Shown here piece by piece: positions 3,794-64,000 of a stretch of 64,000 bases of DNA. This stretch comes from Acidobacteriota bacterium. Lineage in GTDB: Bacteria; Acidobacteriota; UBA6911; JACQSX01. Location: the NCBI GenBank assembly GCA_016211105.1, contig JACQSX010000005.1:1-64000 (forward strand), in the 5' to 3' direction. Both the position numbers and the translations under genes were made by a program. Position 1 is the stretch's first letter. The number at the start of each line of letters is the position of its first letter. A model generated the notes under the pieces. That model was not told the DNA's origin. It ran no database searches and saw only the letters and a program-made list of their open reading frames with translations.

Positions 3794-3864
3794 GCCAGTT
3801 CCTTCATGCTGGAAACAGGAAGTTAAACGTTCCCCAGGAAGAGGAGAAAAAAGAAGGAGATAGG

Positions 3865-5445: not shown

Positions 5446-5448
5446 CTT

Positions 5449-5964
5449 ATGCTTACAATTGAGAATAGTTTTCTAGTGGACAAGTCCGCGCGGGAAATTT
5501 TTGGCCTCTTCAACCAGATAGACAAACTAGCCTGGGCTTTCCCGACTGTAAGTCGTGTGGACGTGATCGATGCCGATCATGTCAATCTCGGGGTAGTGCT
5601 CAAGATGGGCTTGCTGCCGCTAGACAACAACTTATCATTAGAAATCACCGAAAGAACTCCATCGAAGCGTCTGGTGGCTGAGGGCATTGCTATCCCTGGT
5701 AAGGGATTGGCAGGAGCGGCTAGGATCGCGGACAAAGAAGCCTCAACCAGAATTTCGATGGTGCTGGACCTAGAGGAGTTAGATGGTCAGAAGACTAGAA
5801 TCCGCTATACGATCACGGCTGACGCCAGCGGTAACTTAAAACGCATCTATGACGCTATCATCAAGGGCCAGAGAACCAAACTGGAGTCGGAATTTATCCA
5901 CAACGTCTCCGACATCCTAGGCGTGCCCATTTTCGAAGAGCGGGGATGCGGTTCGCCAGACTAA
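5449..5964 (+). CDS. SRPBCC-superfamily protein, CoxG/polyketide-cyclase-like
   Basis: The 171-residue protein has the start-domain-like pattern of CoxG and related lipid/small-molecule binding proteins: an N-terminal strand beginning ENSFLVDKSAREIF, then a helix ending W(A)FPTV, later strands, and a long C-terminal helix. These proteins bind hydrophobic ligands or help mature or anchor redox enzymes. It lies 3 bp after flavoprotein copy 2 and 6 bp before a ferredoxin gene, so it probably works with the flavoprotein electron-transfer step. No catalytic role can be assigned. Confidence 0.75.
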   Translation: MLTIENSFLVDKSAREIFGLFNQIDKLAWAFPTVSRVDVIDADHVNLGVVLKMGLLPLDNNLSLEITERTPSKRLVAEGIAIPGKGLAGAARIADKEASTRISMVLDLEELDGQKTRIRYTITADASGNLKRIYDAIIKGQRTKLESEFIHNVSDILGVPIFEERGCGSPD

Positions 5965-5970
5965 AGTTTT

Positions 5971-6261
5971 ATGGCGCTGAAGATAACGTGTGACTGCATT
6001 GCTTGTGCAGCCTGTGTAGAGGATTGTCCTAACGGCGCAATTAGCGAAGGCCCAGGTATCTACGTGATTGATCCCGAACGATGCGTTGAGTGTGTCGGGT
6101 TCCGCGAGACGCCCCAGTGTGTTGCAATCTGTCCAGTAGACGCTTGTGTCCCAGATCCGGATTACGTCGAAACGCGGGAGGAGCTACTAGCTAAGAAGCA
6201 ACGACTCGCTACCATGGGCTCCGAGTTCTGTGAAGTAAGGGCAAACAGGACGCGTAGCTGA
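5971..6261 (+). CDS. Ferredoxin with two [4Fe-4S] clusters (YfhL/Alvin type)
   Basis: The 96-residue protein shows CIACAACVEDCP followed by CVECVGFRETPQCVAICP. This is the two-cluster arrangement with an extended second loop found in Allochromatium-type ferredoxins. It should carry electrons at low potential in the cytoplasm. It starts 6 bp after the CoxG-like gene, so it most simply serves the adjacent flavoproteins as electron acceptor or donor. The C-terminal 30 residues are charged and resemble the helical tail usual in this type. Confidence 0.9.
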   Translation: MALKITCDCIACAACVEDCPNGAISEGPGIYVIDPERCVECVGFRETPQCVAICPVDACVPDPDYVETREELLAKKQRLATMGSEFCEVRANRTRS

Positions 6262-6301
6262 CGAAAATGAGATTCCGCAAAACAGACAGGAGGTTTGGAG
6301 T

Positions 6302-9300: not shown

Positions 9301-9511
9301 TTCTGTGAATAAAGACATCGAGTTCAGCGAGCACCGAAAACTGCAATTCCGAGCCGAGTTTTTCAATCTGTTTAATCGAGCCAATTTCGGGCAACCAAGT
9401 ACAAACCTTTTCCGAACCGACTCCGGGGTCCCCGATACTACTTTTGGCAGAATAGCCAGTACCTCGACCACAGCACGTCAGATTCAATTTGGTCTCAAGT
9501 ATCTTTTCTAA
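6302..9511 (+). CDS. Oar-type TonB-dependent outer-membrane receptor
   Basis: The 1069-residue protein has a signal peptide ending near SLAFAQ, then a carboxypeptidase-regulatory-like beta-sandwich (about residues 45-130; GTIKDETGAVLPGV), then a plug domain with LPLNGRDFSQL and the following GSGPRLSVSGSRPDQNNF-type segment, then a long beta-barrel ending in a terminal aromatic residue (GLKYLF). Receptors of this kind import large or scarce ligands with TonB energy, and expanded families are typical of Acidobacteriota. AGGAGG lies upstream of the ATG at 6302; an alternative ATG at 6347 would give a shorter signal peptide. Its place between the ferredoxin and the amidohydrolase suggests it takes up the substrate of this cluster. 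A diverged but clearly related pseudogene lies at 17179-20231. Confidence 0.92.
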   Translation: MKGKWSVLWLLTKLLMNTKTSFYVLFSLLSLLLLNSLAFAQITTASISGTIKDETGAVLPGVSLTVTHLDTGRTSATISDDQGRYRILNLALGNYRVNAELVGFQTTVRGGVTLSVGQEAVVDLTLRVGEITDKVEVTGEAPLVETTTSTLRALIDQNQIRDLPLNGRDFSQLAQLQAGVYAPPSMGQTSSSVGGSGPRLSVSGSRPDQNNFLLDGSDVMDVNGRTPGGVSGTTLGVETVREFTVLTNTYSAEYGKVAGGVINAVTKSGTNELHGSLFEFHRNDNLDARVFFDDKKPEFKRNQFGFTLGGPIVKDQTFFFGSYEGLRDRLGITQRSITLTPEARRGILPGGTVIPVDDRVKPFLALYPLPTPGGREFGDGRAEFVRAVSKPTNEDYFVIKVDHGFSQNHSTFVRYLRDNSSLINQGSFPGFQDRGKTARQFATIQDLLTVGPHWLNEFRFSFNRNIYGDDTEQTIQLDPRLTFVPGQQIGMLAVSGISSYGNNPRSNKILTQNMFEYIDNVSYSSGGNLMRFGLQVKRIQFNPFNAFAQYGEYRFTSFENLLRGQAFQLDVMTPGADKHRGWRQTYFGAYLHSEWALTGTLTFNGGLRWEFSSEPKEVNGKVANLVNPLTDAEVSVLKTLYRNPSLANLAPRLGMAWDVFGDGKTAVRGGTGIFYNVLLPGDYVFTATNLPPFFVRPLVSSPSFPNVLEVLAGGRSVAPPGLQIIDYTPDQPYMIKYDLNIQRQILSDFVVTIAYTGSNGVHAGRTDNPNVNRFEICPQCSSALANQVPAGTKFWPAGPVRRINPVFSAYALTTFDTRSMYNGLSVSANKRFSRGFQFQVAYTFSKMMDAASGRQGGYEVGGSSTLPLDPYDWKRDWSLAAFHVGNVFRGNFTLDLPVNVGGALKDLIGGWQVNGILVLADGSPVNLTNSVNRTRAANDPIGQSRPERPNLKPGGNNNLSRGRNTENYWDSSQFELQPAGFMGDLGRNTLIIPGVISFDFSVNKDIEFSEHRKLQFRAEFFNLFNRANFGQPSTNLFRTDSGVPDTTFGRIASTSTTARQIQFGLKYLF

Positions 9512-9763
9512 TGGCACCGCATCGTATGAGCAGACGATCAAGAATGGGCAGCCCCCTTCGTTTCCCGAGATTTACTGTTGCAGCAATAGGTCAAACAGTA
9601 GATGCACTTTCGGGATATTAGGGGTGGGGTTTCTGTGTAGCTTGCTGAGCTGCGCAGCAATGGGATGTTTCGCTGGGAGACGAACTTTGCCAAAGACACG
9701 GCTGAGATTTCTTGCCGCAAGAACATCGCACGAAAAGCACACTGTCTTTTGGAGGTGATAACC

Positions 9764-11665
9764 ATGAAAGTTGTAACAAGGTTTGTTTTACGCTTCCTGT
9801 CGTTTTGCTTGTTGTTTCCACTCAGCTTGTCCACTCGGGTAATGGCTCAGGAGCCAGACCTGATTGTCTTCAACGGCAAAATCGCCTCCGTAGATGAAAA
9901 GCCCCTTTTCCAAAAGGGAACCTCACCGACCGCCGGCGGAGTTTTCCAGGCAATGGCCGTTGGCGACGGCACTGTTATCGCCGTGGGCAGGAATGAGGAG
10001 ATTCTCCGGCTGGCTGGCACGAGGACAAAAAAGTTGGATGTTCAGGGCCGGACGGTGCTTCCTGGTTTGATTGATCCTCACGCGCATCGTAATGGATTCT
10101 TGCCGGAAGACTTCCCTGAAGTGCAGCAAGCCCGCGTCCAGATCCCTCCGAGCGGAAACCGCGAGGAAGTGAAGCGTCAGATCTTGGAGGCCTTGCGCGA
10201 CAAAGCGGCGAAGACCAAGGGCGGCGAGTGGATCATTTTGAACCCCACCGGAGACGTCGCACGAGAACTTATTCTGTTCAATCAAATTACGCGTGGGGAC
10301 CTGGATCGTCTGGCGCCCGACCATTTCGTGATGCTCAACGAGACAGGGTCTGGCCCAAACAGCCAGATTGTTTTCAATACTCGGGCCCGAAAATTGCTGG
10401 AACGGGAGCTGCCGGGATTTCGGTATTTCTCCGACCAGGACATAAAGGGGGATGGCGTCAATGTAAGCATCCTGGTCACTCAGGACGTCATTCTCAAGGG
10501 CAAGGAGGAAAGATATGCGGAATCTCTGAAGAAGATGCTCATTCGTCTTCTGAGAGATGGCACCACAGCGGGGGGAAGCTGGGCAATGCGAACGGCGCTT
10601 AACGCTTACATGACTCTCGACCGAAAAGGCGAGATGCCATGGCGGTTTGCCTGGATATTCTGTGATGGCTCCTATTACAACGGCGAGGGTTTCTATAGGC
10701 GCTTTCCAGATTTTTCTCTGGGTGGCGGAAGCAGATATCTCTGGAGCTTCGGGAACGGCGAGGAAGTGGTGGACTCCCCGTCGACAGGTCTTTGCACGAC
10801 GGTACCCATCATCAACCGCGAGTTAAAGGAGAGGTTTGAGAAATCAGGGGTGGACACGTGCTTTTTGAACAACCCGGTTAAGCGGGCGACCGTGAAGGAT
10901 CAGATAGAGTACGGCCGTGGGAGGCAATACCACGCTTCGGGGGACAAAACGGTCGATCTTTTGTTGGGGATTATTGAGGAGATTCGGCGCGAAACAGGGA
11001 TGACGGCCGAGCAGATCAAAGCCAAGCGAATCACCATGGAGCATCTCCATATGGTCAGAGAGGACCAGTACCCGAAGCTCAAGGAATATGGCGTTGTGAT
11101 GGGCAACAGTCCCGGTTTTATGACTGATAGCCTGAACCCCAAGAAGCCCGACAACGTCATTCAGAACTTTGGCGAACAATACTTGAAATGGATGATGCCA
11201 GCTAAAGGGTTCATCGACAATGGCGTCTACACGGTGCTCGCCGAGTACGGCGGCTTTTCGGGCATCGAGCGCATGGTTACACGCGAAGTCTGCTTTACGC
11301 CGCGGCTTCCTGGGGAAGGAGAAATAGGAACGGAGAAGTGCAAGGTGCTGGCCCCTGAGCAGGCCATCGACCGGGCAACTGCCTTGAAGATGGCCACTAG
11401 CTGGCCCGCCTACTACATGTTGCGGGAAAATGAAATGGGTTCGCTGGAGGTTGGCAAGTGGGCAGATTTCATCGTCATTGATCGAGACTACTTTACGATT
11501 CCCGAGAAGGAGATCAGCGATATCCGAGTCTTGCTGACGGTCCTCGGCGGAAAGGTGGTCTATGCCAGTCCGAACTTTGGTCCCATCGAGCAGATGCTTT
11601 TCAAATCACCCGAATACTACGGAGACGCTCAGCTTGCAAGTCCAACCACAACGGTGGGAATGTAA
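9764..11665 (+). CDS. Secreted YtcJ-like metal-dependent amidohydrolase
   Basis: The 633-residue enzyme starts at ATG 9764 with a strong ribosome site (GGAGGTG, spacing about 6); a longer frame from 9665 has no such support. A signal peptide (basic start, hydrophobic stretch, RVMAQ) precedes the N-terminal composite domain LIVFNGKIASVDE. The first metal motif is DPHAH, and ITMEHLHM and the C-terminal KWADFIVIDRDYF follow, as in YtcJ-type amidohydrolases. Export to the periplasm is therefore predicted, with hydrolysis of an amide or related bond in an imported compound. The partial gene at 1-152 is a paralogue, so the cluster carries at least two copies. Confidence 0.87.
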   Translation: MKVVTRFVLRFLSFCLLFPLSLSTRVMAQEPDLIVFNGKIASVDEKPLFQKGTSPTAGGVFQAMAVGDGTVIAVGRNEEILRLAGTRTKKLDVQGRTVLPGLIDPHAHRNGFLPEDFPEVQQARVQIPPSGNREEVKRQILEALRDKAAKTKGGEWIILNPTGDVARELILFNQITRGDLDRLAPDHFVMLNETGSGPNSQIVFNTRARKLLERELPGFRYFSDQDIKGDGVNVSILVTQDVILKGKEERYAESLKKMLIRLLRDGTTAGGSWAMRTALNAYMTLDRKGEMPWRFAWIFCDGSYYNGEGFYRRFPDFSLGGGSRYLWSFGNGEEVVDSPSTGLCTTVPIINRELKERFEKSGVDTCFLNNPVKRATVKDQIEYGRGRQYHASGDKTVDLLLGIIEEIRRETGMTAEQIKAKRITMEHLHMVREDQYPKLKEYGVVMGNSPGFMTDSLNPKKPDNVIQNFGEQYLKWMMPAKGFIDNGVYTVLAEYGGFSGIERMVTREVCFTPRLPGEGEIGTEKCKVLAPEQAIDRATALKMATSWPAYYMLRENEMGSLEVGKWADFIVIDRDYFTIPEKEISDIRVLLTVLGGKVVYASPNFGPIEQMLFKSPEYYGDAQLASPTTTVGM

Positions 11666-11756
11666 TCGACATTCTACTCGAACCTGACGGCGCACTACGC
11701 GTCGGGTACAGTAATGAGATTACCTTCGCGGATAATCTCTATGTAGAGAGGAAAAG

Positions 11757-13397
11757 ATGAAAACTCACGAGTTTGATGGTGTCATTATCGGAGCGGGTCA
11801 CAATGCTCTTGTTCTAGCTGGTTACTTGGCAAAGAGCGGCTTGAAGGTGGCCGTCTTGGAAAAGACCGGATTTATTGGAGGCGGGGCAGGAACCTTCCCG
11901 AGTCCCTACTACCCCGGGTTCCTTCACGAATATCACTCTCAGTTTCATCGCAACGTGCCCAACCTGCCATGGTATACGGATCTAGAACTGGACAATTATG
12001 GCGTTGAGTACATCTTTCCCCCGGTCAACAACGGCATGCCGCTCAGTGACGGCCGGTGCCTCATCATTCACGCGGATCCCAACATAACTAAAAAGTCACT
12101 TGAGCGCTTCTCAAGAAAGGACGCTGAAAACTATTACCGGATCTACCATAAGTACGAAGACATGGGTAAGAAAATCTGGTTTGTGCGAGATTACTCTCCC
12201 CCGCTGTCCCAAGATGAGGAGACCGATTTGCTAAAAAAGAGCAAGATGGGCCGGGAGTTTCTGGAAATCAACAAAAAAAGCGCCTATGAAATCGTTCACG
12301 AGCTGTTCGAGGATCAGGCACTTCGGGCTTTCTATCTGTTTCTTTTCTCGGTGAGGGGTTACTTGCCTGCCCCTACTATCAAGGGTACGGGCTTTGCCAC
12401 CGTCGCCATGACCTTTATGGGCAACAAAGCCATGCTGCCCAAAGGCGGGGCGCGCCAGTTGACTCACGCCTTGGCTTTCATGGTTTCCCACCACGGAGGG
12501 AAGATTTTTCCGGCGACTGAGGTTGAGCGAATCATGGTGCAAAATAACCGGGCTGTGGGCGTTGAAAGCGTGGATGGGCACAAGTTCATGGCCAAGAAGT
12601 TTGTGGTCAGCAGTGTGGATCCCACTCAGACATTCCTCCGCTTCATCGAAGGGCAGTTTCTGGATGCCCATATTGTCGAACGGGCCAGGAATTATAAATA
12701 CGGGGTTTCCGGAAAGAGCTTTGGCGTGCTTTTCACGTTACACGCGGCAACCCATGAGCCGCCCAACTATACCTCATCGAAATATGACCCGATGATTAAC
12801 CAGGCATTCAATACCTGTGTAGGGTATGAAACTCCTGACGAGGTCATCCATCATCTCAACCAAGTGATTGAAGGCATGCCCCCGGACAAAATCGGGATCC
12901 AGTGTGCAGTTCCCACCCTCTTTGACCCGAGCCGTGCCCCCCGTGGAAAACATGTTCTTCTGGCTTGGCAATTTGCCCCTTACTCGGTATGCGGAAAGGG
13001 ACCGGAGGAATGGGACAACATTAAACACACGTACTTGGAAAAGGTCCTGGCGCGCTGGGCAGAGTACGCGCCCAACCTTGAGCCCAAGAACGTTATTTAT
13101 GCCTTCCCACAAACCCCGGTGGATGTGGAGCGGCATCTGATCAACATGCGGGAAGGAGACTTTCATGTCGGCGCTCTTATACCGGAACAGCTAGTGGCGA
13201 ACCGGCCCTTCCCGGAGGTTTCGAATTACCGGGCTCCTATTGACAGTTTGTATCTGACGGGAGCGGGAACCCATCCTACAGGGAATATTACAGGGGCGCC
13301 GGGTTACAATTCAGCGCAGGTGATCCTCCGCGATCTGGGCATGGATGTGTGGTGGAAGCCACCCGATCCTCGAAAAGTATGGCGCCATCTGGACTAA
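11757..13397 (+). CDS. Phytoene desaturase/PYROXD2-like FAD-dependent oxidoreductase (copy 3)
   Basis: The 546-residue flavoprotein has the N-terminal motif VIIGAGHNALVLAGYLAKSG and the C-terminal FAD signature LYLTGAGTHPTGNITGAPGY. By inspection it is closer to copy 1 than to copy 2: both share [10 protein letters not shown] and the closing LWWKP/VWWKP region. The ATG follows AGAGAGGAAAAG. Together the three copies suggest several related dehydrogenation or isomerisation steps on a non-aromatic ring or polyene. A palindromic hairpin lies 14-70 bp downstream of the stop and may end the transcript. Confidence 0.87.
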   Translation: MKTHEFDGVIIGAGHNALVLAGYLAKSGLKVAVLEKTGFIGGGAGTFPSPYYPGFLHEYHSQFHRNVPNLPWYTDLELDNYGVEYIFPPVNNGMPLSDGRCLIIHADPNITKKSLERFSRKDAENYYRIYHKYEDMGKKIWFVRDYSPPLSQDEETDLLKKSKMGREFLEINKKSAYEIVHELFEDQALRAFYLFLFSVRGYLPAPTIKGTGFATVAMTFMGNKAMLPKGGARQLTHALAFMVSHHGGKIFPATEVERIMVQNNRAVGVESVDGHKFMAKKFVVSSVDPTQTFLRFIEGQFLDAHIVERARNYKYGVSGKSFGVLFTLHAATHEPPNYTSSKYDPMINQAFNTCVGYETPDEVIHHLNQVIEGMPPDKIGIQCAVPTLFDPSRAPRGKHVLLAWQFAPYSVCGKGPEEWDNIKHTYLEKVLARWAEYAPNLEPKNVIYAFPQTPVDVERHLINMREGDFHVGALIPEQLVANRPFPEVSNYRAPIDSLYLTGAGTHPTGNITGAPGYNSAQVILRDLGMDVWWKPPDPRKVWRHLD

Positions 13398-51326: not shown

Positions 51327-53642
51327 ATGGTAAGGGAAAACGAAGCTTTGGAATACCACAGTCGTGGACGAAAGGGAAAAATTGAAGTCGTCCCGACGAA
51401 ACCCTGCAGCACGCAGTGGGATCTCTCGATGGCTTATACCCCGGGGGTTGCTGTCCCCTGTCTACGAATCAAAGACAATCCGGACGAGGTTTACAACTAT
51501 ACCGCCAAGGGCAATCTGGTGGCGGTGGTGTCCAACGGAACCGCGGTATTGGGCCTGGGTGACATCGGTGCGGCAGCAGGGAAACCGGTAATGGAAGGCA
51601 AGGGAGTCCTGTTTAAGCGATTCGCCGATATTGATGTGTTCGATATTGAGATCGACAGTCACGACCCGGATGAGGTCATCAAAGTTGTCAAGTTACTGGA
51701 ACCCACTTTTGGAGGCATCAACCTTGAGGACATCAAGGCGCCGGAATGTTTCCACATCGAAGAGACGCTTATCCGGGAACTGAAGATCCCGGTGTTTCAC
51801 GACGACCAGCATGGCACCGCGATCATCTCGGGTGCGGCGCTGCTCAATGCGCTGGAGGTGGCGCGTAAGAACATTGATAAGGTGAAAGTGGTCTTCAATG
51901 GGGCGGGCGCTTCTGGAATTGCGTGTGCCAAGTACTACATCGGCCTAGGCGTCAAACGGGAGAACCTCATGCTGTGCGACAGTACGGGTGTCGTCTATAA
52001 AGGGCGGCAGAAGGGGATGAACCCGTACAAGGAACAATTGGCCGCTGACACGAAGGCCCGCACATTGGCTGAGGCACTGGTCGACGCCGACGTTTTCGTC
52101 GGCCTCTCGATTGCCAACTGCGTCACTCAGGATATGGTGCGTTCCATGAATGAACGGCCGATCATTTTCGCGATGGCCAACCCGGACCCCGAAATCACGT
52201 ATGAAGAGGCGAAGGCGGCCCGCCGCGATGTGATTATGGCCACGGGAAGATCGGATTATCCCAATCAGGTCAACAACGTGCTGGGCTTTCCATTCATTTT
52301 TCGGGGCGCCCTGGACGTGCGCGCCACGGCCATTAATGAAGAGATGAAACTAGCCGCGACGCGTGCACTGGCCACGTTGGCGAAAGAAGATGTCCCGGAT
52401 TCAGTCATGAAAGCTTACGGCGTCAGCCGTCTCCGTTACGGGCCAGAATACCTCATTCCTAAGCCGTTTGACTCGCGCGTGCTGATTTGGGAGGCTTCCG
52501 CGGTAGCCGAAGCGGCGATGCGAAGCGGGGTTGCGCAGACGAAAATCGACATTGAACTCTACAAAGAACAGCTCGAGAGACGGCTGGGCAAGTCGCAAGA
52601 AGTGACACGCATCATGATCAACCAGGCAAAGCGAAATCCTAAGCGTGTGGTGTTTCCCGAGGGTTATCATGAAAAGGTTCTCCGAGCCAGCCAGATCATC
52701 GTGGACGAGGGCTTTGCCCAGCCCGTGCTCTTGGGCAAGGAGGAGCGGATTCGCCAGTTGACAAGAGAGCACGATTTGAACATCAACGGCATCGCTATTG
52801 TGGATCCAGCCAGTTCCGTAAAGCATGAAGAATATGCGCAGGAGCTGTTTCGGTTACGCCAGCGAAAGGGTGTGACACTGGCGCAAGCGCGGGCGCGCCT
52901 ATTGCGGAACCCCACGGTCTACGGCGCCATGATGGTACACATGGGCGACGCGGACGCCCTGGTTGCGGGAGTAGACCAATCGTATCCGGAAACGATTCGG
53001 CCGGCGCTGGAGATTATCCAAATGCGCGAGGATGTTGCCCGCGTGGCGGGGCTGTTCATGATAATTTTCAAGGAGAAGATTTACTTTTTTGCCGACACGA
53101 CGGTCAACATCGAGCCTACGGCCGAAGAGCTAGCCGATATTGCCATTTGCAGTGCTGAAGTGGCCCGCCGCTTCCAGATTGAGCCCAGAATTGCCATGCT
53201 TTCGTTCTCCAACTTTGGTACCGCCAAGCATCGGTTCGTGGACAGGGTGCGGGAGGCTACCGAAATCGTCAAGCGGCGAGCTCCAGATCTCATCGTCGAC
53301 GGCGAGATGCAGGCCGACACGGCAGTGGTCCCGGAACTGATGGAGCAGCACTACCCGTTCAGCCCTTTGAAGGGGGGAGCCAACGTGCTGATTTTCCCAG
53401 AGCTCCAGTCAGCCAATGTGGCATACAAGTTGGTACACCGGCTGGGCGGCGCGGAAGCAATCGGACCTATCCTGATGGGGATGCGCAAACCCGTGCATGT
53501 ACTCCAGCATGGTTTTGAGGTGAAGGACATTGTCAACATGGCGGCCATCGCGGTAGTGGACGCCCAGGAGGCCGAGGAGAAAAACAGGTTAAGAAGATCC
53601 AGCGCCGAACGGGGCAGAGAACACGTTCCCATCTCTACGTAA
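51327..53642 (+). CDS. maeB: Malic enzyme-phosphotransacetylase fusion (MaeB type)
   Basis: The 771-residue protein joins a malic enzyme (about 1-430; [36 protein letters not shown]) with a phosphotransacetylase-like domain (about 440-770; [26 protein letters not shown]). It turns malate to pyruvate with NADP; the second domain usually regulates it by acetyl-CoA. CTAGGAGAAGGA lies before the ATG. It converges on the PPDK-like gene, so pyruvate and PEP enzymes stand together. Confidence 0.92.
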
Positions 53643-53739: not shown

Positions 53740-56700
53740 TTACCGTGCCTTTCGGTGCAGCGACAGGGATCCGATGTATACCTCTCCCGATGTCCCGTGG
53801 ATGGAGACGATGTCTCCCTTTCGGATGGGGTAGCGCTCCACTCCCGTGGCGTCTACAATCACGGCCGTGTGTTCTTTCAGATTGACGCGAAGGCCCACGG
53901 CGCTCATTACGGCGTGAAAGCGCTTGTTTTCAATTCCGTTGATCGCGACGGCGGCGTGAGAGCTCGACCCACCTTTTGCGGTCAGCAATCCATCTGCGGA
54001 AATGATCATAGGGATGTCGTCCGGCGCAGGGTTTTCCAGCACCAGTAGCACACCGTCGACATCCTCCCGCTCGTTTAAATCCGTCGAGGCTAGCTCCTTC
54101 CGGTCCATCTCGTCAAAAGCGACGCGTCCTCTGAAACCACCGCCTCGGATGCCGATTCCGCGTGTCGCCGACTCGCCGGGAGCAACAAAGGTGTTCGTCT
54201 CCAATTGCATGCTGGTTTCAGCGGTTCTGGACTGGAGAACGCTCAGCACCCCTCGCTCCACCGTGAACTCAATTTCCTGATCGGTCCCCGTCAACCTTCT
54301 AAGTTTGGCGACGATGTGCTTCAATCTTCGCTCCAGCATGGGCATCAGGTTGCCCAATGCTCCCATCGGCTGGAAGGAGGTGGAGGTGGTTAAAGCTCCG
54401 ACCAGATCGTCGCCCACGGCGGAGAATTTAATCTCTCCGGCGAATGTTCGGACTCCCCAATCGGTCATGTAGGTGCGGGGAATCACGCCGGTGAGCGAGG
54501 CCTTGGTTTCATCCATCCCCTCTCCAACCTCCTCGTTTTTTCTGTTTCCTGAGGCCATTTCCTGAACGATGACAGCGGTGTGCCACGTGTGACAGATGCC
54601 CTTGATCGTCCGGTACCGCCTTGCCCTCTCGCTGTTCCAAGACTGAAACACGGCTTGGACGGCGCTGAAAAGTTGTTTCGTGGGATCGTTAAGGATTTCA
54701 TCCAGTTGCGGGCCGAAGCCCTGCTGTCGAATGATGCTTTTGGACATCTCAACAATTTCTTTCATCGCCACCCAAGGAAGCCGGTATTTGTACGGGACCT
54801 TGTAGCGGCGCTTCATTTCCTCCACCAAGTGGAAGCCTTCGATGTCGATGGCCCACGCCGCCGCGCCGTAACTGGCAAGAAACCTTCGATAGGAATCATA
54901 AGCGTGCCATGCGTCGTCCTGTGCGAGCCCTTCGGCGATTGAGTCGTTGATGCCCGCGAAAACGATCGTCGACAAGATCCCGGGCAAGGAAAACACCGAG
55001 CTGCCCCGCACTGCCAACAGAAGCGGACACTTGGCGTCCCCAAACCGCCTTTCGACGCCATCCCGTCTGGTAATGTCCTCTTCCAGAACCCGAAGATGAG
55101 CGGCAATCTCCTTTTCCAATTGCGGCCGGTTGCGATGATAGAGCCCCGCGCGGGCGAACGTGGTCGGAAGGATGAAACCGTCGCAGGTGGGAATGTTCAT
55201 GTAGCTGATATAAATGAGACTGCTACCCTTTCCACCGTACTGGTCTCTCGGATTCGGCAGACTCTCAACGCGCTGCGCCAGCTCTTGTATATCTCCCTTG
55301 TGAGAAAGGTGAACCACGCCGTTGCCGGCAAAGCCCTCTAAGGGTTCAAGGGGCAGGTTCCCAATCGGTCGTGAGGAGTCCACAATGTGATTCTGGATGT
55401 GTGTTCTTGCAAGATCGCAAAAGTGAACCATGCTGTTCAGATCGTGCATGTAACGCGTCATGTTGGCGACAACGGCGCGCAGTTCGCCCGCCTCAAGCCC
55501 TAACCGGTGAGCCATCTTTTCGTAGGCAATCGTAGCGCGCTGCAGAATCTTGTGGTAATCACGCTGGATGCTCTCCAGCAGATTTGTCACCTCTGCATAC
55601 GTCTTGGTCGGGTCGGTCAATATGGCGGCAAAGTCGGCCAACTCTCGCGAGAATAAGCCATCATAGTCAAGATTCGCGATGCACATCCGAATGATATTGA
55701 GGCACTGGTTGAGTTCGACTCCCCGGTCGTCATATGCGGCTGCCACGTGTCGCAGAGCGAGAAATCCGATTTCTTCCAGCAAGCAGTCCAACTGATACAG
55801 ATAATAACGCTGCTCGGTAAATCCACCCCGCTGGATGCCACTGTGAAGGGTCTGGCGGAGTTTGCAAATTTGTGAGAAGGTTTCAAAGAAGGCCCCTTGT
55901 TCGTAACAAGCCAGCACCTCCTGAAGTGACCGGAAGAGGTCATTTTGGTAAGCGTTCTGGATTTCCCGGCTAAAACTCCTCACACAGTCTCTTGCGATCC
56001 GTTCCGTGCCTTCAACAACAAAACCGGCCTGGTCCGGCATCAGGGCCGTCAATGCTTCCAATCGGCTTTTGAATCCTTCCGCCAGGCCCGAAGGAGAAGA
56101 AAAATCTTCGACTTTCCTGATAAGAATCCGCAGATGGTGATAGTAGACCCATCGGTTTCTTGTCCGAATCCCCTTGTTGACCAGTGCCTCCAATTCGTCC
56201 TCGAGACTGTTGCCGAATTCACACCGTAAGAGGCTCTCGGCGTACGCGTCCCGCCACTCCTGGATTCTCGTTACCACTTCCGAAATCCCGAGAAGTTTCT
56301 CCAAACCGAGTACGACGCGCTCCACAATCCTGCGGGGAGTTTTGCGACTTCTTGCCAGCATGTCGGCTGGCGACGGAGCCTCAAAACCGAAGCGGGCCAG
56401 TCGCTCCGCATTCCCCGTGTCGAGGTAGTCTAAGTACATCTTCGCGAGAAGAAGCGTCCTTTTTCCCAGCGCATGATGCGCGCTCCTTCTCAGCTCATTG
56501 ACAATCGCGCTACCCCGAATGTGAATCTCAGCTAGATCAATCGTGTCATTCCACAGCTCGTCGATGACTTTCGGTCTGAGGATAATGCCGGATAAATTTC
56601 TGACAAGAATTCGTGTGAGCAGCCGATGCCGGCGTGAAAATGGCCCATTGAGGAGGCGAACCAGTTGGGTGATGAGATTATTGACTTCCGGCTGCACGTT

Positions 56701-57279
56701 CTTTGCCCCGAGAAACGCTTCAAAGGAGAGACTGCACAATTTCGCGGCCAAGAAGCGAAGACAGTAGATCATTTCGTTGCGGTTCGTACACGCGTTCACT
56801 CTTTCCAGCAGGAAAGCAATATCGCGGATTCGCTCAATATGGATTTCCGCAATCTGGTCATCTTGGAATTCAAACAGCTCTCGCTCCAAATCGACGGGTT
56901 CGCCAGACAAGCCGATGGTTCCGGCAATGAGAGCGTCTGTATAAATCGTCCCGGCGGGAAATTGCCGGACGACGACCCGATCCGTTGTTCCATCCCGAAC
57001 GATGTAGACAACCAACGTTTCCACAGCCAGATAGGGCACAATCAAAAGAGGCGCGTCTCTTAGGATCCGATTATTGACAATCCCGAACCGCCCCACTCTG
57101 CCCGCTATTTTGGATTTGATGTGGATGTAGTAACGCAGCGCTTCCTTGCTGTCTACGTCTGCCTCGGCGGGGACATGGGCGCGGTACAACGCTAGGTTGA
57201 GAGTTGCGATTTGCTCCTTCTCCTCTTCGGTGAAGGGTTCCAGAGTGAATATTTCGGGTCCGGCGGCGCTCTGTTGCAT
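53740..57279 (-). CDS. PPDK/PEP-synthase-like protein without the PEP-binding barrel
   Basis: The 1179-residue protein has three parts. Residues 1-650 are mostly helical and not recognised. Residues about 670-1050 are a PPDK-type ATP-grasp domain (YGGKGSSLIYI, VRGSSVFSLPGILSTI, PTKQLFSAVQAVFQSWN). The end (about 1080-1179) is the phosphohistidine domain, with the phosphorylated His in LTAKGGSSSHAAVA and GDIVSIHGTSGEVYIG. The C-terminal TIM barrel that binds PEP/pyruvate in PPDK and PpsA is missing. It starts 20 bp after the enolase fusion gene (CGAGGG site), so they form an operon. The phosphoryl acceptor is unknown; the large N-terminal region may supply it. Confidence 0.85.
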   Translation of the reverse strand: MQQSAAGPEIFTLEPFTEEEKEQIATLNLALYRAHVPAEADVDSKEALRYYIHIKSKIAGRVGRFGIVNNRILRDAPLLIVPYLAVETLVVYIVRDGTTDRVVVRQFPAGTIYTDALIAGTIGLSGEPVDLERELFEFQDDQIAEIHIERIRDIAFLLERVNACTNRNEMIYCLRFLAAKLCSLSFEAFLGAKNVQPEVNNLITQLVRLLNGPFSRRHRLLTRILVRNLSGIILRPKVIDELWNDTIDLAEIHIRGSAIVNELRRSAHHALGKRTLLLAKMYLDYLDTGNAERLARFGFEAPSPADMLARSRKTPRRIVERVVLGLEKLLGISEVVTRIQEWRDAYAESLLRCEFGNSLEDELEALVNKGIRTRNRWVYYHHLRILIRKVEDFSSPSGLAEGFKSRLEALTALMPDQAGFVVEGTERIARDCVRSFSREIQNAYQNDLFRSLQEVLACYEQGAFFETFSQICKLRQTLHSGIQRGGFTEQRYYLYQLDCLLEEIGFLALRHVAAAYDDRGVELNQCLNIIRMCIANLDYDGLFSRELADFAAILTDPTKTYAEVTNLLESIQRDYHKILQRATIAYEKMAHRLGLEAGELRAVVANMTRYMHDLNSMVHFCDLARTHIQNHIVDSSRPIGNLPLEPLEGFAGNGVVHLSHKGDIQELAQRVESLPNPRDQYGGKGSSLIYISYMNIPTCDGFILPTTFARAGLYHRNRPQLEKEIAAHLRVLEEDITRRDGVERRFGDAKCPLLLAVRGSSVFSLPGILSTIVFAGINDSIAEGLAQDDAWHAYDSYRRFLASYGAAAWAIDIEGFHLVEEMKRRYKVPYKYRLPWVAMKEIVEMSKSIIRQQGFGPQLDEILNDPTKQLFSAVQAVFQSWNSERARRYRTIKGICHTWHTAVIVQEMASGNRKNEEVGEGMDETKASLTGVIPRTYMTDWGVRTFAGEIKFSAVGDDLVGALTTSTSFQPMGALGNLMPMLERRLKHIVAKLRRLTGTDQEIEFTVERGVLSVLQSRTAETSMQLETNTFVAPGESATRGIGIRGGGFRGRVAFDEMDRKELASTDLNEREDVDGVLLVLENPAPDDIPMIISADGLLTAKGGSSSHAAVAINGIENKRFHAVMSAVGLRVNLKEHTAVIVDATGVERYPIRKGDIVSIHGTSGEVYIGSLSLHRKAR

Positions 57280-57299
57280 AAAAAGCCCTCGCTTCTACG

Positions 57300-59939
57300 C
57301 TATCTCTGCAGCGGCGAACTCGACCCGACGGGCGAGATCTCGGTCGTGTCTCCGCCGGGTAGCGTCGACTTCGGTCGGTCAAGCCTGGAGGCCACTGGAT
57401 TCATCACCTCGGAAGCCGGTTGGCCGGCGGGCAATTCAATCTCTGTCCTTGAAGGTGGCAGCGTACCCGCGGGGGAGAGCTCATCGTTAGCATAAATGTT
57501 GGTGGTCTCGCGGATTGCCTGGTACAGTGGTTTTCCCTGCGCCTCCAAAAGTCGGTTTACTTCTCGGAGGGCGTACACATAGTCGGAAAATCTACTGCCA
57601 GCGATCGGTATTTTGTAAGTCCCTGCCAGAGAGTCGATGATGGCAAGCATCTCTTCACGCAACAGCTCATAGAGTTGCTTTCCCTGCACATGGGCGAGCG
57701 CCCGGGCAAGCGCCAGGGAGACGGATAACAGCGCATTCATGCCGAGATTCTGCTTGCGCTGCATGACTCGAACGGCGCTTTCCCGCGAAGCGTGTAGGTC
57801 GAGCTTGTTTCGCTGCCGGGCCAGACGTAACTCCAGTTGCAAAAGGGCTCGATCGATATCCTTGACGGTGTGGGCGGCGATATCGCGCCCTTCAAAATAT
57901 GGCGCGACCGTCTGACGGACATTGTCGACGGCATTCAGACAGCCCTTTCCCTGGTAACGCTGGGCGCGGGTGAAGATGGCTCTCAGCCGCTCGTCGCCCG
58001 GAGTTCGGCCTGCTGGAACATCTTTTTTGAAGGCATACACGCCGGGTTCCACTTCTCGGAAGAAAGTTGAATACTTCTTAATCAATTCTCGGTGTTCCGC
58101 GTACTCGACGAAGGCGTCAACAAGGTGTACTGCTTCCCCGGTGCCGGCAGAAGTGCCAAGGGGTGTCGCGCCGTTGAACGTAAGGCAGACGCCTGCATTC
58201 GGGAGATGGAGTTCCACCTCGACGCCAACGGTTGGAACTCCGGCATTGGTAGGCTCCTCGTAAGCGGTGACTTTGCGAATCACCGCGTTCTGCCCTTCAG
58301 ATATGGCGCCCAGCCTGCCGGCGTCGGCCAGCTTTGCCATCAATGTTGTCACGGCTTGATATTTGACGAGCCGCTCCGTGTTTGCTCCACCTCCCGCCTT
58401 GAGGCCCAAGGCGTTGGCAGCCAGCGCAATGTGGGCTTCCATCGTATCATTCGGGCTCTTGGACCGGTGCGATACGATCAGTTCCAGATTCTTGCCTAAC
58501 GCCACCAGCATTGCGAGCAGGGTCTCGTAGAGGGAACCGATTTGGTTGGCCTTGATCAGCGCGACATTGATCAGCCCTTGGGAGGCGGCCATCTCGATGG
58601 TTCGATCGTTGGTAGTTACCAGATCGTCGCCGATGATGAAGATTCTGTCTCCCAGGGCTGCCAGTAACTTTTTCCATCCTTCGTGGTCGTTTTCCGAAAA
58701 GCCATCTTCAATTGAGAGGATCGGAATCTCATACTTTTGAACTGCCTGGTTGTAAATCTCCAAGACCCCGTCCCGATCCATGACAATTTTGGTCTTATCC
58801 CTCCAGAAAAGGTACATTCCCACGGCGTCAGGCACGTTGTACTCGGTCCGGTAGGCGTTCTCCAGTTCACTCATCGCTGGGTCCAGAGCAATGGCGACAT
58901 CGATACCGGGCCGATAGCCGCACTCCTCGATTGCCTGCTTCATCATTGCCCAGAGCCGGATTTCAGGGAGGGGATAATCTCTTTTGTCAATGTAGGGAGC
59001 CAGGCCGCCTTCCAACCCGATACCCATCACCCGGCACCCATCTTCCTTCTCAATGATCTCTTTGAGACGGGTCTGCAGCCGCACAGTCATCTCTTGGGCT
59101 TCCTGATAATCGGGCGCGCCCAGGATCAAGAACATGGCCTCCTGCATACTGATGTTCGACTCCGGATAATCTTTTTCCGTATGTCGACCCCCCATGCCGC
59201 AGTTCCGGAATTGCCAGGGCGCCGCTACCGGACCCAGGTGAGGATGGTTGGCCTCCCGCACGCGCTCGGCCAACATCTTTTGCTTGACCTTCGTGGCCAG
59301 TTTGTACCACTCGGACAGCTTGGGCACCGCTTGAGCCGATTGTTGCGCTCTTCGCTCCTGTTCTTTGAATGCCGCATACTTCCCGGGGTCTGCCAGCAGA
59401 AAGTCCAGAAGCGTCACGATGCCGATGCCGAGCAGAAGTCTCCCCGCATAGACAGCAGCCGGGATGTGCGATAGAAGCCCCAGGGCAATGAGGAGCAGAG
59501 CGGGAGGCAGCGCACTCCATGCCGCATTGCGGCTTGCCCGTGGACCTTCCGCCGCGACCGCCAGGTTATAGGGGGCATCAGGATAATAATTCAGACCTTC
59601 CCGCTTGATGCCGCCGCTTTTTCCATAAGGGGCAAAGGTAAATACCTTCGCATAGTACAGAAGACGTTGCGGGAGAGGTTTTCCAAGTTGTTGTCTTACT
59701 TCTTCCAGCACCTTCTGGTTCAAAGCATTTAGTTTTGCCGCTTTCCGAAAATGGCCAATTTCGTGGATGGCAATTCCCGTGTGGAAGCTGAGGTACATGA
59801 ATAGAGCCGAAACTAAAGTTTCCGGGCTGTAGAAGATGAACCGCAGGACCTCGGCCTTCAATACCGCGGCGGCTGGCAAGACCAGCACGGAGGAGATGAA
59901 CGCTACGTGAAATGAAACCAGAATATGGTTGGCAATCAC
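57300..59939 (-). CDS. Circularly permuted enolase fused to an intramembrane HExxH domain
   Basis: The 879-residue protein starts with an M50-like membrane domain (about 1-195): several hydrophobic helices, HEIGH at 59-63, and LLDFLLADPG near 177-186. Next comes the enolase catalytic barrel (about 242-537): His253, Gln266-Glu267, Glu310, Asp353, Glu411, Asp439, Lys463, Arg492-Ser493 and Lys514 match E. coli H159, Q167-E168, E209, D246, E290, D317, K342, R371-S372 and K393. Only then does the usual N-terminal domain follow (about 547-760; PTVGVEVEL, SAGTGEAV, LGMNALLSVSLALA), so the order is reversed. A low-complexity tail closes it. GTG 59939 with AGGAGGGG upstream is preferred over ATG 60161, whose first 74 residues look non-coding. 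Confidence 0.88.
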   Translation of the reverse strand: MIANHILVSFHVAFISSVLVLPAAAVLKAEVLRFIFYSPETLVSALFMYLSFHTGIAIHEIGHFRKAAKLNALNQKVLEEVRQQLGKPLPQRLLYYAKVFTFAPYGKSGGIKREGLNYYPDAPYNLAVAAEGPRASRNAAWSALPPALLLIALGLLSHIPAAVYAGRLLLGIGIVTLLDFLLADPGKYAAFKEQERRAQQSAQAVPKLSEWYKLATKVKQKMLAERVREANHPHLGPVAAPWQFRNCGMGGRHTEKDYPESNISMQEAMFLILGAPDYQEAQEMTVRLQTRLKEIIEKEDGCRVMGIGLEGGLAPYIDKRDYPLPEIRLWAMMKQAIEECGYRPGIDVAIALDPAMSELENAYRTEYNVPDAVGMYLFWRDKTKIVMDRDGVLEIYNQAVQKYEIPILSIEDGFSENDHEGWKKLLAALGDRIFIIGDDLVTTNDRTIEMAASQGLINVALIKANQIGSLYETLLAMLVALGKNLELIVSHRSKSPNDTMEAHIALAANALGLKAGGGANTERLVKYQAVTTLMAKLADAGRLGAISEGQNAVIRKVTAYEEPTNAGVPTVGVEVELHLPNAGVCLTFNGATPLGTSAGTGEAVHLVDAFVEYAEHRELIKKYSTFFREVEPGVYAFKKDVPAGRTPGDERLRAIFTRAQRYQGKGCLNAVDNVRQTVAPYFEGRDIAAHTVKDIDRALLQLELRLARQRNKLDLHASRESAVRVMQRKQNLGMNALLSVSLALARALAHVQGKQLYELLREEMLAIIDSLAGTYKIPIAGSRFSDYVYALREVNRLLEAQGKPLYQAIRETTNIYANDELSPAGTLPPSRTEIELPAGQPASEVMNPVASRLDRPKSTLPGGDTTEISPVGSSSPLQR

Positions 59940-60327
59940 CCACCCCTCCTGAAGAAAGCAGCCTGGTAGCCGATCGACCAAGGAGGCTCCCCAAGGTCCG
60001 GAACGGTCATGGGTTTGACATGGCGAGCCAGGGGTATGGCGGCGCTGTCTCGGTAGGGTCCTGCAGACGGTTTCCGCAATTGAACTTGCCGTCTCACTCG
60101 GGCGGTCTTGAACAATCCCGTTACATCGACTGGAAGTTTGAAAATGTTTGATCTTGACCATTTCACCACCTAATCACCACGTAGGGCGAAGACAAACGAC
60201 GATCTGCTTAAGCCTAATCTGCTTCGGTTGGTAGAAAGGATATTCCTTTTTTCCTGCTGATTGAAGTCAAAATGGGAAATCGGGAGATCCGACACTCCGG
60301 GCAAGATGTGGCTGCCAAGGGGATGCG
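59940..60327. other. Leader region between the NrfD-like and enolase genes
   Basis: These 388 bp separate two minus-strand genes. Two frames stay open through the part near the enolase start: one continues into the enolase (from ATG 60161) and the other is a 77-codon frame whose TGA overlaps the enolase GTG as GTGA. Neither translation resembles a known protein. The region may hold the operon promoter. Confidence 0.5.
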
Positions 60328-61530
60328 TCAGGAGGTTTGCCTGGAAGCCTCTTTCCACGGAGGTATGAGTTTCACTAGGATGGTCAGAATGACAAACGGC
60401 AGCACCAGCAGAGCCAGCGCCATCATTAGTCCTTCCGAGCCGATGACCTCCATTTTATACGTCGTTAGTCCCCGAAGGCTCTTTGAAAACAACTGACCTC
60501 CAATGACGACATTCCACCGCGTACTAAATATGCCGACCTGAATCAAAATGCAGGCCGTGAAATAGAGCAGTTTTCTCAGTTCTTCGCTTAACCTCCACGC
60601 TCTTCCTGCCACCAGCATTGCCGAAGGGATGATCATTCCCAACAGCACCTGAATGATCAGAAGGCTCATGAACAGTTTTTGATTGATCAGGGTAGCCAAG
60701 ATCTTAACCGATTCCTCACTTTCGTAGAGCCGGTGTACAAAGTCAAGCGCTTCAAGAGAAAAATCCACAATCACGGCGTAAAACAAGAATGAGGCGAGTC
60801 TGTCCAAGCATCTCATGTCGATGGTTTCACCCCGAATTGGGGTAATCACCATATACAAGAAAATGATCAGCGCGATGCCTGAGACAATTGCTGACATCAG
60901 AAAAACGATTGGCATCAAAACGCTGCTCCACCATGGGTTGGCCTTCACCGATCCAAATATGAATCCCACGTATCCGTGCAGGAGAAACGCGGACGGAATG
61001 CCAATGATCGTGATCGCCTTGGCGGCTTTGTGATCGAATTCCAGCGCCCGCTTACTGATATCGTTTGAAAACAGGGAGAGCAGCCGGTAGATCCATTTCA
61101 TGGGGAACTGTTTTTCCCGGGACCACACGACGAGGTCCCCCCGGTATTCGAACCATATTTCCAGCAATAGCACGCCCATCAGATACCAGGCGTACACAAA
61201 CCCGAACATTGCCATGGCGGACCTGAGATTTGGCGTAAGGAATATTTCGTAGGCGCGTTCGGGATGCCCCAGATGCAGATTGAGCGGTAAAGGAGCTACC
61301 AAAAGAAAAGAGAGTGCGGTCAACAATGACAACCTGTAGGTAGGCCGCACTTCTTCCACATTAAAGACCTTGACTAGTGAAGCAAGGATGAATGCCCCGG
61401 CAACGACCCCGGTAACATAGGGATAGACCACGATGAGGATCGACCAGTGAATCTCGATCTCATTGGGGTAGATGTAGCCCGTGACCTGGCTCAAAAGATC
61501 CGTTAACTTTTCAGTCAATTCCTGATTCAA
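60328..61530 (-). CDS. NrfD/PsrC-like quinone-interacting membrane subunit
   Basis: The 400-residue protein has about ten membrane helices and NrfD-like features (HWSILIVVYPYVTGVVAG, then HLGHPERAYEIF, and a C-terminal RWNVVIGGQLFSKS region), the quinone-oxidising or -reducing subunit of complex iron-sulphur enzymes. The TTG start at 61530 overlaps the ferredoxin stop (TTGA) with GGAG 7 nt upstream. An in-frame longer reading to 61680 would run through the upstream gene and is not preferred. Confidence 0.88.
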   Translation of the reverse strand: MNQELTEKLTDLLSQVTGYIYPNEIEIHWSILIVVYPYVTGVVAGAFILASLVKVFNVEEVRPTYRLSLLTALSFLLVAPLPLNLHLGHPERAYEIFLTPNLRSAMAMFGFVYAWYLMGVLLLEIWFEYRGDLVVWSREKQFPMKWIYRLLSLFSNDISKRALEFDHKAAKAITIIGIPSAFLLHGYVGFIFGSVKANPWWSSVLMPIVFLMSAIVSGIALIIFLYMVITPIRGETIDMRCLDRLASFLFYAVIVDFSLEALDFVHRLYESEESVKILATLINQKLFMSLLIIQVLLGMIIPSAMLVAGRAWRLSEELRKLLYFTACILIQVGIFSTRWNVVIGGQLFSKSLRGLTTYKMEVIGSEGLMMALALLVLPFVILTILVKLIPPWKEASRQTS

Positions 61531-62273
61531 TTCACCACTCCGTCCAGACCCGAGTAATAGACTTTTGGTTCCGTATTGAGATAGGGCTTCAGGACGTGGA
61601 TCTTGTTCATTCGCTGGAACCGTACCAATTCGCTTGCCCGGCTCCGTAAATCTCCGAAAATTCTCGCTTGCGTGGGACAAACTTCAACGCACGCAGGAAG
61701 CAATCCTTTGACGACTCGGTGATAGCAAAATGTGCACTTGTCCGCCGTCCGGGTTTGGGGGTGGAGATAGCGAGCTCCAAAAGGACACGCCTGAATACAA
61801 TAGCGGCACCCAATGCAACGATCTCGGTCTACTAGAACCACCCCATCGTCCGTTGAAAACGTGGCGCCGACGGGGCAGACCTGTACACAGGGCGGGTTGG
61901 CGCATTGGTTGCATGTTTTTGGAACAAAAAAGCTACGGAGGATATCCTTTTCCTCAATCGTTTCTTTTGGTTGTTTCCCTCCGGTGTGGATGCTCTCCAC
62001 AGCAACGCTGCTGTCTTTCTTGATGATGTATCGCTCTACCCATGTCCGGAAAAAGAACGGCTCTCTGGGCACATTGTTTTCAATCTTGCATGCCTCGATG
62101 CATTTACCGCAGCCGATGCATTTTGCGACCTCGATCCCCATTCCATAGTAGTGGTTCTCTGGATGGTAACCGTTGAGGTCAGAATTTGCCTGGGCGGCTT
62201 GAATCGTTGCCCTGAAGGCCCCACTCACAGGAATAAAGAGAATGATGTTTTTCAACAAATCCCGTCGCTTCAT
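61527..62273 (-). CDS. Tat-exported ferredoxin with four [4Fe-4S] clusters (DsrO/HybA-like)
   Basis: The 248-residue protein has an RRDLLKNI signal segment and sixteen cysteines in four sets: CIGCGKCIEAC, CNQCANPPCVQVC, CIGCRYCIQAC and CTFC...ACVEVC. It passes electrons between the NrfD-like quinone subunit and periplasmic cytochromes. ATG 62273 begins 1 bp after the octahaem cytochrome stop; the longer frame to 62579 lies inside that gene. Confidence 0.9.
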   Translation of the reverse strand: MKRRDLLKNIILFIPVSGAFRATIQAAQANSDLNGYHPENHYYGMGIEVAKCIGCGKCIEACKIENNVPREPFFFRTWVERYIIKKDSSVAVESIHTGGKQPKETIEEKDILRSFFVPKTCNQCANPPCVQVCPVGATFSTDDGVVLVDRDRCIGCRYCIQACPFGARYLHPQTRTADKCTFCYHRVVKGLLPACVEVCPTQARIFGDLRSRASELVRFQRMNKIHVLKPYLNTEPKVYYSGLDGVVN

Positions 62274-62274
62274 G

Positions 62275-63012
62275 TCACAGCCTTTCCGCCGGCAGGTGCG
62301 GATAATGACACTGCCAACAAACATACTTCTCCCAGTGGGTCGAGAGGTCGATCTTGGGAGCGTCCACGACCGGCGCGCCTTTGGCATGGCATTTTCCGCA
62401 GAAATCTCTTGTCTCGGGTTTCGTCGGCCTGATAATGCGGGGCGTGATCTTATGTTTTTCTGGCACTGTGTGACATGTGGTGCATGCGACCAGAGCGTGC
62501 GAGGAGATGGCTTTTGTGCGAACAATCCCGGCGTGGCAGGCGGCGCATTCCTCCGGGGTTCTGGGTGGCACCGGGTCATGGGGATTATGGCAGGTCACGC
62601 ATGGTTGTAATGGGTTGTGAATCGTGGGATTGATTTGCGGAAATCCCGTGGGTCGCGACGGGTCGTATTCGTGGCACGTCGGGCAGCCCCGTCGCTCTCG
62701 CGCCACGAAAGGCTTTATCGTGATGGGATCTGCCGCGTGCTCGGCCGCGGGTCCGTGACATGTTTCACAAGACAAATTTCGGTGATAACCAGTCTTCTTC
62801 TGTTGGTATTTGTCGTCATGGCAGTCTGCGCATGCGTTCGAACCTGCAAACTGGATGGGCTTTGCAGTCTCCGCCAGTATGGTGGAGCGTCGATGAAACG
62901 GTTTGTCCTTGAGCGCAGGAGGCAGCAGATAAAGCGTCAGTGCGACGCTGCCAAAAATGATGGAGATGACGATCCCGAGTCTTATGATTTGCTCAGGTAC
63001 TTTCTTTGGCAT
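62275..63012 (-). CDS. Eight-haem cytochrome c, membrane anchored
   Basis: The 245-residue protein has an N-terminal membrane helix (about 9-30) and eight CxxCH motifs: CADCH, CETCH, CPTCH, CVTCH, CAACH, CTTCH, CGKCH and CWQCH. With the ferredoxin and NrfD-like proteins it makes a quinone-to-periplasm electron route. Spacing to the downstream ferredoxin gene is 1 bp. Confidence 0.9.
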   Translation of the reverse strand: MPKKVPEQIIRLGIVISIIFGSVALTLYLLPPALKDKPFHRRSTILAETAKPIQFAGSNACADCHDDKYQQKKTGYHRNLSCETCHGPAAEHAADPITIKPFVARERRGCPTCHEYDPSRPTGFPQINPTIHNPLQPCVTCHNPHDPVPPRTPEECAACHAGIVRTKAISSHALVACTTCHTVPEKHKITPRIIRPTKPETRDFCGKCHAKGAPVVDAPKIDLSTHWEKYVCWQCHYPHLPAERL

Positions 63013-63373
63013 TGCGTTCTTCTTCTAGCTGCTCATGGAAACGGCCCTACGGATCAGAGCTTGTGCTCTGTGTACGCAACAGAAGCAACGCGACTACGTC
63101 TATAAGGTTCGTGGGCAGCGCAGATTTTCTAAGAGTGCTGCAAGCGGGTTGGATGGCGGTACAACCGCGGCCGAAATGCTGTCCTGGCGCGGGTCCTCGA
63201 TTGAATTCCCGATTCATGTCGCGTCTAAAGTGCAATTCGCCAGTTCCCCAGCAATAACCGTACCAATGGCGGAGGCGTCTCGGCCAGAGTGCAAGCCCGC
63301 GGTCAATTCGGTGATATCCCCCAGGGCATGGGCAAAATCCCCAACCCAGAATTAAAGTGCTGACATCCATGGT
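63013..63373. other. Gap between two cytochrome genes without a recognisable gene
   Basis: The 361 bp carry open frames on both strands but none with a ribosome site, known motif or haem-binding cysteine. A GC-rich middle part reads smoothly in one minus-strand frame (GDFAHALGDITEL) without a start, which may be chance or an old remnant. Confidence 0.4.
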
Positions 63374-64000
63374 TTAGGACTTTTTTTCACCTCGTCGAAA
63401 TGAGTGACAGTCCTGGCAAGCGGCCTCCGGATTGTGCGCGGTTTTGTCTTGGTGGCAATTGAAGCAGAGCTCTTTCTCGCCTACTTTCCACTGGTGCGGG
63501 ATATGGCAGAGGGTGCAGTCTGCTGCCGAATGAGTGGGCTTGAGGTGCAGTTCGCCCAACCCAGTGTGACAGGTCGTACAAGCCTGTATCGGCTTAACGT
63601 ACTGTTCCTTCAAGTGACACTGATTGCACTCGAAAGCCATGGGTGCATCCGCCGGGCGTTCGTGACACGTTCCGCATTCCGCTACCAGCCCTCTTCCCCT
63701 CCAATGACATTGCGTGCAGCTGATCTCAGCGTGCTTCCCTTGAAACGGCCAGGGATGCTTGAATTTTTCTGCCATGACCACTTCCGTAGGATTTCCCACC
63801 TGTGTTTCCTGGCCAATGATGGCATGGCAGAGTTGGCAATCACGGCGAATGACCTTTCCCTCCCGGCTTATATGCTTTCCCTCGTGGCAGCGAAAGCAAC
63901 CTGGGTATAAAGTGTGACCGATGTTGTCCGGGTGCGTCCGCCAGTCCACCTTCATCTCTGGAAAGAAATTGGTTTGGTAAATTTGTTGGATTTGTCCAAT
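63374..64000 (-). CDS. Multihaem cytochrome c (at least nine haems), start outside the window
   Basis: The frame is open to the window edge, reading QIYQTNFFPEMKVDWRTHPDNIGHT before the internal ATG, a segment that usually stands in the middle of longer NapC/NirT-like membrane cytochromes. Nine CxxCH motifs are visible: CFRCH, CQLCH, CTQCH, CGTCH, CNQCH, CTTCH, CTLCH, CFNCH and CQDCH. A NapC-like anchor is expected beyond the edge. It is the first visible gene of the NrfD module. Confidence 0.88.
   Translation of the reverse strand: MGQIQQIYQTNFFPEMKVDWRTHPDNIGHTLYPGCFRCHEGKHISREGKVIRRDCQLCHAIIGQETQVGNPTEVVMAEKFKHPWPFQGKHAEISCTQCHWRGRGLVAECGTCHERPADAPMAFECNQCHLKEQYVKPIQACTTCHTGLGELHLKPTHSAADCTLCHIPHQWKVGEKELCFNCHQDKTAHNPEAACQDCHSFRRGEKKS

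Follow-up and report, generated by a model that had tools for sequence, protein, structure and literature searches.

In mycobacteria, VadK (Rv1127c) is a pyruvate, phosphate dikinase (PPDK) without the PEP barrel that autophosphorylates its own histidine and acts as a regulator, binding enzymes of the methylcitrate cycle (PMC13400623). The two-component dikinases HpeHI/PpsAB and rifampin phosphotransferase also combine an ATP-grasp domain with a swivelling His module, with acceptors other than PEP (PMC12167813). Among intramembrane proteases, M50 proteins with C-terminal CBS regulatory domains form a large known group (PMC11486902). Here we describe a locus in a 64,000-nucleotide stretch of DNA from an Acidobacteriota bacterium (hereafter the window) in which a barrel-less PPDK-like protein (gene K) lies beside a circularly permuted enolase preceded by an M50-like membrane domain (gene E). 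Judged from its sequence, this architecture appears to be new: the modules come from known superfamilies, and their combination departs from each resembling family in a defining feature. No family model was found for the combination of E and K, and neither a natural circularly permuted enolase nor such a fusion was found in any paper of the open-access literature (subscription journals being mostly outside it).

Gene K (53740..57279, minus strand, 1179 aa) encodes an N-terminal region followed by a PPDK-like ATP-grasp domain and a phosphohistidine domain. The ATP-grasp domain (residues 676-1023; 54211..55254, minus strand) was matched by Pfam PPDK_N (E 4e-14) and, over residues 678-1023, by the NCBIfam model TIGR01828 (E 2.5e-69). 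The swivelling phosphohistidine domain (PF00391; 53761..54066, minus strand), with the motif GGSSSHAAV and His1108, was matched by the Pfam PEP-utilizers domain (residues 1075-1145, E 1e-6). K also matches NF004531 (PRK05878, named pyruvate, phosphate dikinase; E 1.5e-51), and nothing in it other than PPDK_N and PEP-utilizers exceeded the Pfam curated cut-off. Residues 676-1022 and 1072-1173 align to 1dik 14-341 and 419-511, respectively. Both domains are thus shared with PPDK (TIGR01828; PDB 1dik), whereas the C-terminal PEP/pyruvate barrel of that enzyme is missing from K: PF02896 was not detected in it, and in the genome of the window was found only in the canonical PPDK and in a 597-aa PTS enzyme I-like protein. 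The ATP-grasp residues K684, R758, E1004, Q1016 and R1018 and the phospho-accepting histidine are invariant in 21 of 21 aligned rows, His1108 being the PPDK-type catalytic histidine (GGxTSHAA). For PPDK itself, we take the ATP-grasp residues to be K22, R92, E323 and Q335.

The N-terminal region (residues 1-645; 55345..57279, minus strand) had no match to known families. It contains a conserved RGSxIxNExRRSxHH stretch, in whose HH motif we suspect a likeness to plant glucan water dikinase. Weak matches to MbeD_MobD, EST1 and synaptonemal families were dismissed as chance hits to helical sequence that were inconsistent across members. A PEP barrel hidden within these approximately 650 residues was also rejected, since domain searches and alignment found none, and the preliminary description of this locus was right on both counts in proposing a missing barrel and an N-terminal region of no known family.

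K resembles VadK in its PPDK-type ATP-grasp and phosphohistidine domains, its loss of the barrel and its retention of the catalytic residues (PMC13400623). VadK is however a stand-alone protein of approximately 50 kDa, whereas K carries the 650-residue extra region and is partnered, in most cases within a single chain, by a permuted enolase that has an M50 membrane domain. The VadK-type gene stands alone near methylcitrate genes, while K is fused to or paired with the permuted enolase and has no recurrent neighbours. HpeHI/PpsAB and rifampin phosphotransferase are similar to K in their ATP-grasp and swivelling His domains but differ in domain arrangement (PMC12167813), and no family match connects the substrate domain of either with the N-terminal region of K or with the enolase barrel.

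Gene E (57300..60161, minus strand, up to 953 aa) shares with enolase (TIGR01060; PF00113/PF03952) the barrel, the N-domain and 12 catalytic residues, but the order of the domains is reversed. The C-terminal TIM barrel comes first (PF00113, residues 320-616, E 2e-51; 58314..59204, minus strand) and the N-terminal domain follows (PF03952, residues 628-777, E 2e-16; 57831..58280, minus strand), an order common to the 11 relatives that were aligned with canonical enolases. The PDB sequence matches of E are enolases, the barrel aligning to residues 151-422 of one with 430 aa, and the enolase of E is a true circular permutation of the two halves. E further differs from enolase by an insert of approximately 50 residues in the N-domain and by a membrane domain in front, as well as in two motifs, LDSRGNPT being replaced by PTNAGIPT and the SGETED loop by SKSPND; the loop serine (yeast S39) is kept in the alignment. 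Once canonical enolases are rearranged to match this order, the 12 catalytic residues line up with theirs and show no variation in any of the 25 family members examined. In yeast numbering we take this set to be S39, H159, E168, E211, D246, E295, D320, K345, H373, R374, S375 and K396.

The start of E had previously been implied to be a GTG at 59939. This was in error: the residues LxEGW just before that valine codon are conserved in relatives of E, and the codon itself is GTC, GTA or GTT in five of them, which rules out this GTG and places the start upstream of 59939 but no farther out than the ATG at 60161.

Between this start and the barrel lies an M50/site-2-protease-like domain (59223..59939, minus strand) with three to four hydrophobic segments, an HExxH motif (residues 59-63) and a distal aspartate (Asp184, both counted from 59939). 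HExxH is invariant in 24 of 24 family members and the aspartate in 25 of 25, and 22 of 24 relatives match Pfam Peptidase_M50 (best E 5e-6), although the window copy taken by itself does not pass. That the N-terminal part of E is membrane-located and protease-like is well supported by these sequence features, and it bears out the earlier suggestion of a membrane-bound system, made before the domain was identified. The M50/site-2 proteases SpoIVFB and mjS2P likewise have HExxH and a later aspartate within hydrophobic segments, followed by a soluble part, but C-terminal CBS domains stand there in place of the enolase and dikinase modules found here (PMC11486902). To judge from the residues conserved, the family therefore has three active centres, all of them apparently active.

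E and K are both on the minus strand and 20 nt apart (57280..57299), with GAGGG ahead of the ATG of K; in fused relatives this gap corresponds to a linker. When 60 related genomes were searched with the N-terminal region of K, three further copies were found, and in all three a single open frame (2,051-2,184 codons) holds both halves. Scanning 84,980 species genomes with an alignment of E gave 42 loci, all in metagenome-assembled genomes (MAGs), from Acidobacteriota, Aminicenantes, Pseudomonadota, Myxococcota, Planctomycetota, Krumholzibacteriota, Gemmatimonadota, a Desulfonatronum-labelled bin, WOR-1, Cloacimonadota, Spirochaetes and Elusimicrobia. Of the 38 main-clade relatives, which span about ten phyla, 34 have E and K as one protein of approximately 2,050-2,370 residues, and the other four loci (L026, L041, L054, and L058) are cut by a contig end; a shift breaks the frame in L045 and L056, with the order of E and K unchanged. 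Identity between phyla is approximately 60-70%. In a tree of E, every fused copy falls on one side of a branch with support 99, and the window copy is sister to the fused L017 (support 99). Given this position inside the fused clade, the two-gene state of the window is best explained by a fused gene that was secondarily split in two. A single frameshift or assembly error is an unlikely cause of the split, because stops occur in both frames ahead of the ATG, which has GAGGG before it, as seen in one MAG. The preliminary description had the two adjacent minus-strand frames right, while an operon is not the general state, relatives having one gene.

In a second, unfused form, the permuted enolase has near it a different PPDK-like gene, which is barrel-less too. 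Four loci (L052, L053, L055, and L057) make up a distant E group without K. In WOR-1 (L052), a gene with PPDK_N adjoins the distant E, and in a spirochaete (L055) the adjoining gene has two tandem PPDK_N-type modules; L053 is close to a contig end. Searching the WOR-1 candidate phylum with the membrane domain found E in 6 of 74 genomes, and in six of six a barrel-less PPDK-like gene is adjacent or one gene away. A profile of this WOR-1 kinase gene (A8) scored above 1,000 bits in precisely these six genomes and in none of the others among the 74; its matches elsewhere in the phylum were all below 200 bits and look like ordinary PPDK. The unfused form is also present in four Acidobacteriota genomes, where E and the kinase gene are adjacent, and in one Elusimicrobiota genome. 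Permuted enolase and barrel-less dikinase are thus paired in two architectures, the fused clade and a separate unfused form. Conservation of the pair as neighbours, which the preliminary description had proposed checking, holds in both, as a fusion in 34 relatives and as close, co-occurring genes in the second form, and the coupling of the two modules, which are inherited together, is beyond reasonable doubt.

There are exceptions. One genome (G184) has K alone (L064:7689-11261, 1190 aa), its only enolase being canonical, and in two others (G101 and G120, both approximately 82% complete) a very divergent relative of E was found and no such kinase. In G101, this third, very divergent permuted-enolase relative (L124:3417-6020) lies tail-to-tail with a canonical enolase gene. 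The kinase was also looked for and not found in the Elusimicrobia genome of L057, where a 3,123-aa open reading frame (L057:6008-15379) encodes a permuted enolase and a triosephosphate isomerase domain, along with further regions that could be assigned to no family.

An ordinary enolase is present in 23 of the 26 genomes with the family, the other three possibly being incomplete MAGs. The genome of the window has a canonical enolase on contig 22 as well as a canonical PPDK. The system is therefore accessory, with bulk catalysis covered elsewhere, and these ordinary enolases together with the M50 domain support the earlier view that it is not plain glycolysis. It is also rare and patchy, K being found in 5 of 396 genomes of the window's phylum, and no conserved neighbour was found around the fused form across its loci. 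A malic enzyme-phosphotransacetylase fusion gene (51327-53642), which we take to be an ordinary MaeB-type hybrid, is indeed convergent with K; the part in the system once suggested for it was rejected, as it is not conserved near other copies. A role in anti-phage defence was likewise rejected, there being no PADLOC match.

Neighbours of the unfused form in WOR-1 include genes for PGK, iPGM and PFK, and aldolase-like, FBPase-like (FBPase_2-like), phosphatase/mutase-like and GAPDH-like genes. They tie the system to lower glycolysis, which is compatible with catalysis or with sensing. The GAPDH-like protein L083:7120-8253 is without the catalytic Cys motif, and some of these neighbours may be pseudoenzymes, forming a pseudo-glycolysis set. 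At L079, L080, L081, L082 and L083, the unfused permuted enolase lies within a cluster of these divergent paralogues of glycolytic genes. The PGK-like protein of L079 has no recognisable C-terminal GGG motif.

We infer a PEP-related or signalling role for the pair, as first suggested. Tentatively, with a probability of roughly 0.4, we propose that the protein is a membrane device for phosphotransfer and proteolysis that responds to metabolites and ATP, a sensor or switch for the state of lower glycolysis and energy, rather than a bulk glycolytic enzyme. The M50-type intramembrane metalloprotease-like domain anchors it in the membrane; ATP would autophosphorylate His1108 as in PPDK and the barrel-less VadK, and the enolase module would bind and interconvert 2-phosphoglycerate and PEP. 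The combined state of both modules (ATP/phospho-His and 2PG/PEP) would then be passed to the M50 domain, which would cut a membrane substrate. Fusion in 34 of 38 relatives, independent pairing with a different kinase gene in the second form, the invariant residues, the M50 match, the ordinary enolase and PPDK encoded elsewhere, rarity and the precedents of VadK and the CBS-M50 proteases all favour a sensor. On the other hand, sensors often lose catalytic residues, and the full enolase set fits real catalysis equally well. Neither a protease substrate nor a conserved regulated neighbour was found around the loci, and the PGK, iPGM, FBPase-like and PFK-like neighbours in WOR-1 point to metabolism.

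The protein may instead be a metabolic enzyme, a possible but somewhat doubtful alternative in which the swivelling phosphohistidine would dock on the enolase TIM barrel in place of the lost PEP/pyruvate barrel, a three-carbon acid in the enolase site would accept or donate the ATP-derived phosphate, and the M50 domain would serve only as a tether. Every enolase, ATP-grasp and His residue is invariant, the PEP barrel is missing in every form while the enolase barrel is nearly always linked, and distant relatives have glycolytic neighbours and a fused triosephosphate isomerase, all of which would suit such an enzyme; enolases are however not known to accept a phosphoryl group from histidine, and an invariant HExxH and Asp are more than a tether requires. 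The solitary K of G184 counts against enzyme and sensor alike, and the permuted-enolase relatives of G101 and G120 without such a kinase weigh further against the sensor. K alone is easier to accommodate if phosphorylated K, like VadK (PMC13400623), regulated its own enolase module, through either activity or placement at the membrane, and possibly the housekeeping enolase too, to set flux at the PEP node without proteolysis. The specificity of the pairing for enolase also favours such control, which we nonetheless regard as unlikely, because it leaves the invariant M50 active site unexplained. Unrelated neighbours, or decayed paralogues of housekeeping enzymes, might have been suspected from the two open reading frames of the window and the canonical enolase and PPDK elsewhere in its genome; fusion across about ten phyla and co-occurrence contradict this, and with invariant active sites and a ribosome-binding-like GAGGG before the second gene it is very improbable.

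A bolder reading joins parts of the sensor and the enzyme: the enolase barrel would replace the PEP barrel of PPDK, a three-carbon acid in the enolase site would receive ATP-derived phosphate from the swivelling phosphohistidine at the membrane, and the outcome would gate the intramembrane protease. We consider this improbable, but if true, one polypeptide would unite a new energy-linked reaction with a new kind of metabolic sensor. More generally, the architecture suggests a link between energy metabolism and the membrane that has not been described so far, and either M50 proteases would gain a role as direct sensors of glycolytic state, or a phosphotransfer reaction new to the PEP node would come to light. 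The three active sites can be mutated one by one, which makes the question of function directly testable.

Several other features were noted by eye or in passing. In G670 (L085:17813 to L079:2387), the unfused pair has beside it another PPDK-like gene as well as a TIM-like gene (by eye) that is divergent. Upstream of E in the window (60328-63955), genes for an NrfD-like membrane protein, a 4Fe-4S protein and multihaem cytochromes (by eye) are shared with the sister genome G001, and Fe-S or molybdopterin oxidoreductase genes also occur near L029, L031, L034, L047 and L054. Elsewhere in the window (2123-13397), three related open reading frames for phytoene-dehydrogenase-like FAD oxidoreductases lie near a UbiD-like gene (by eye).
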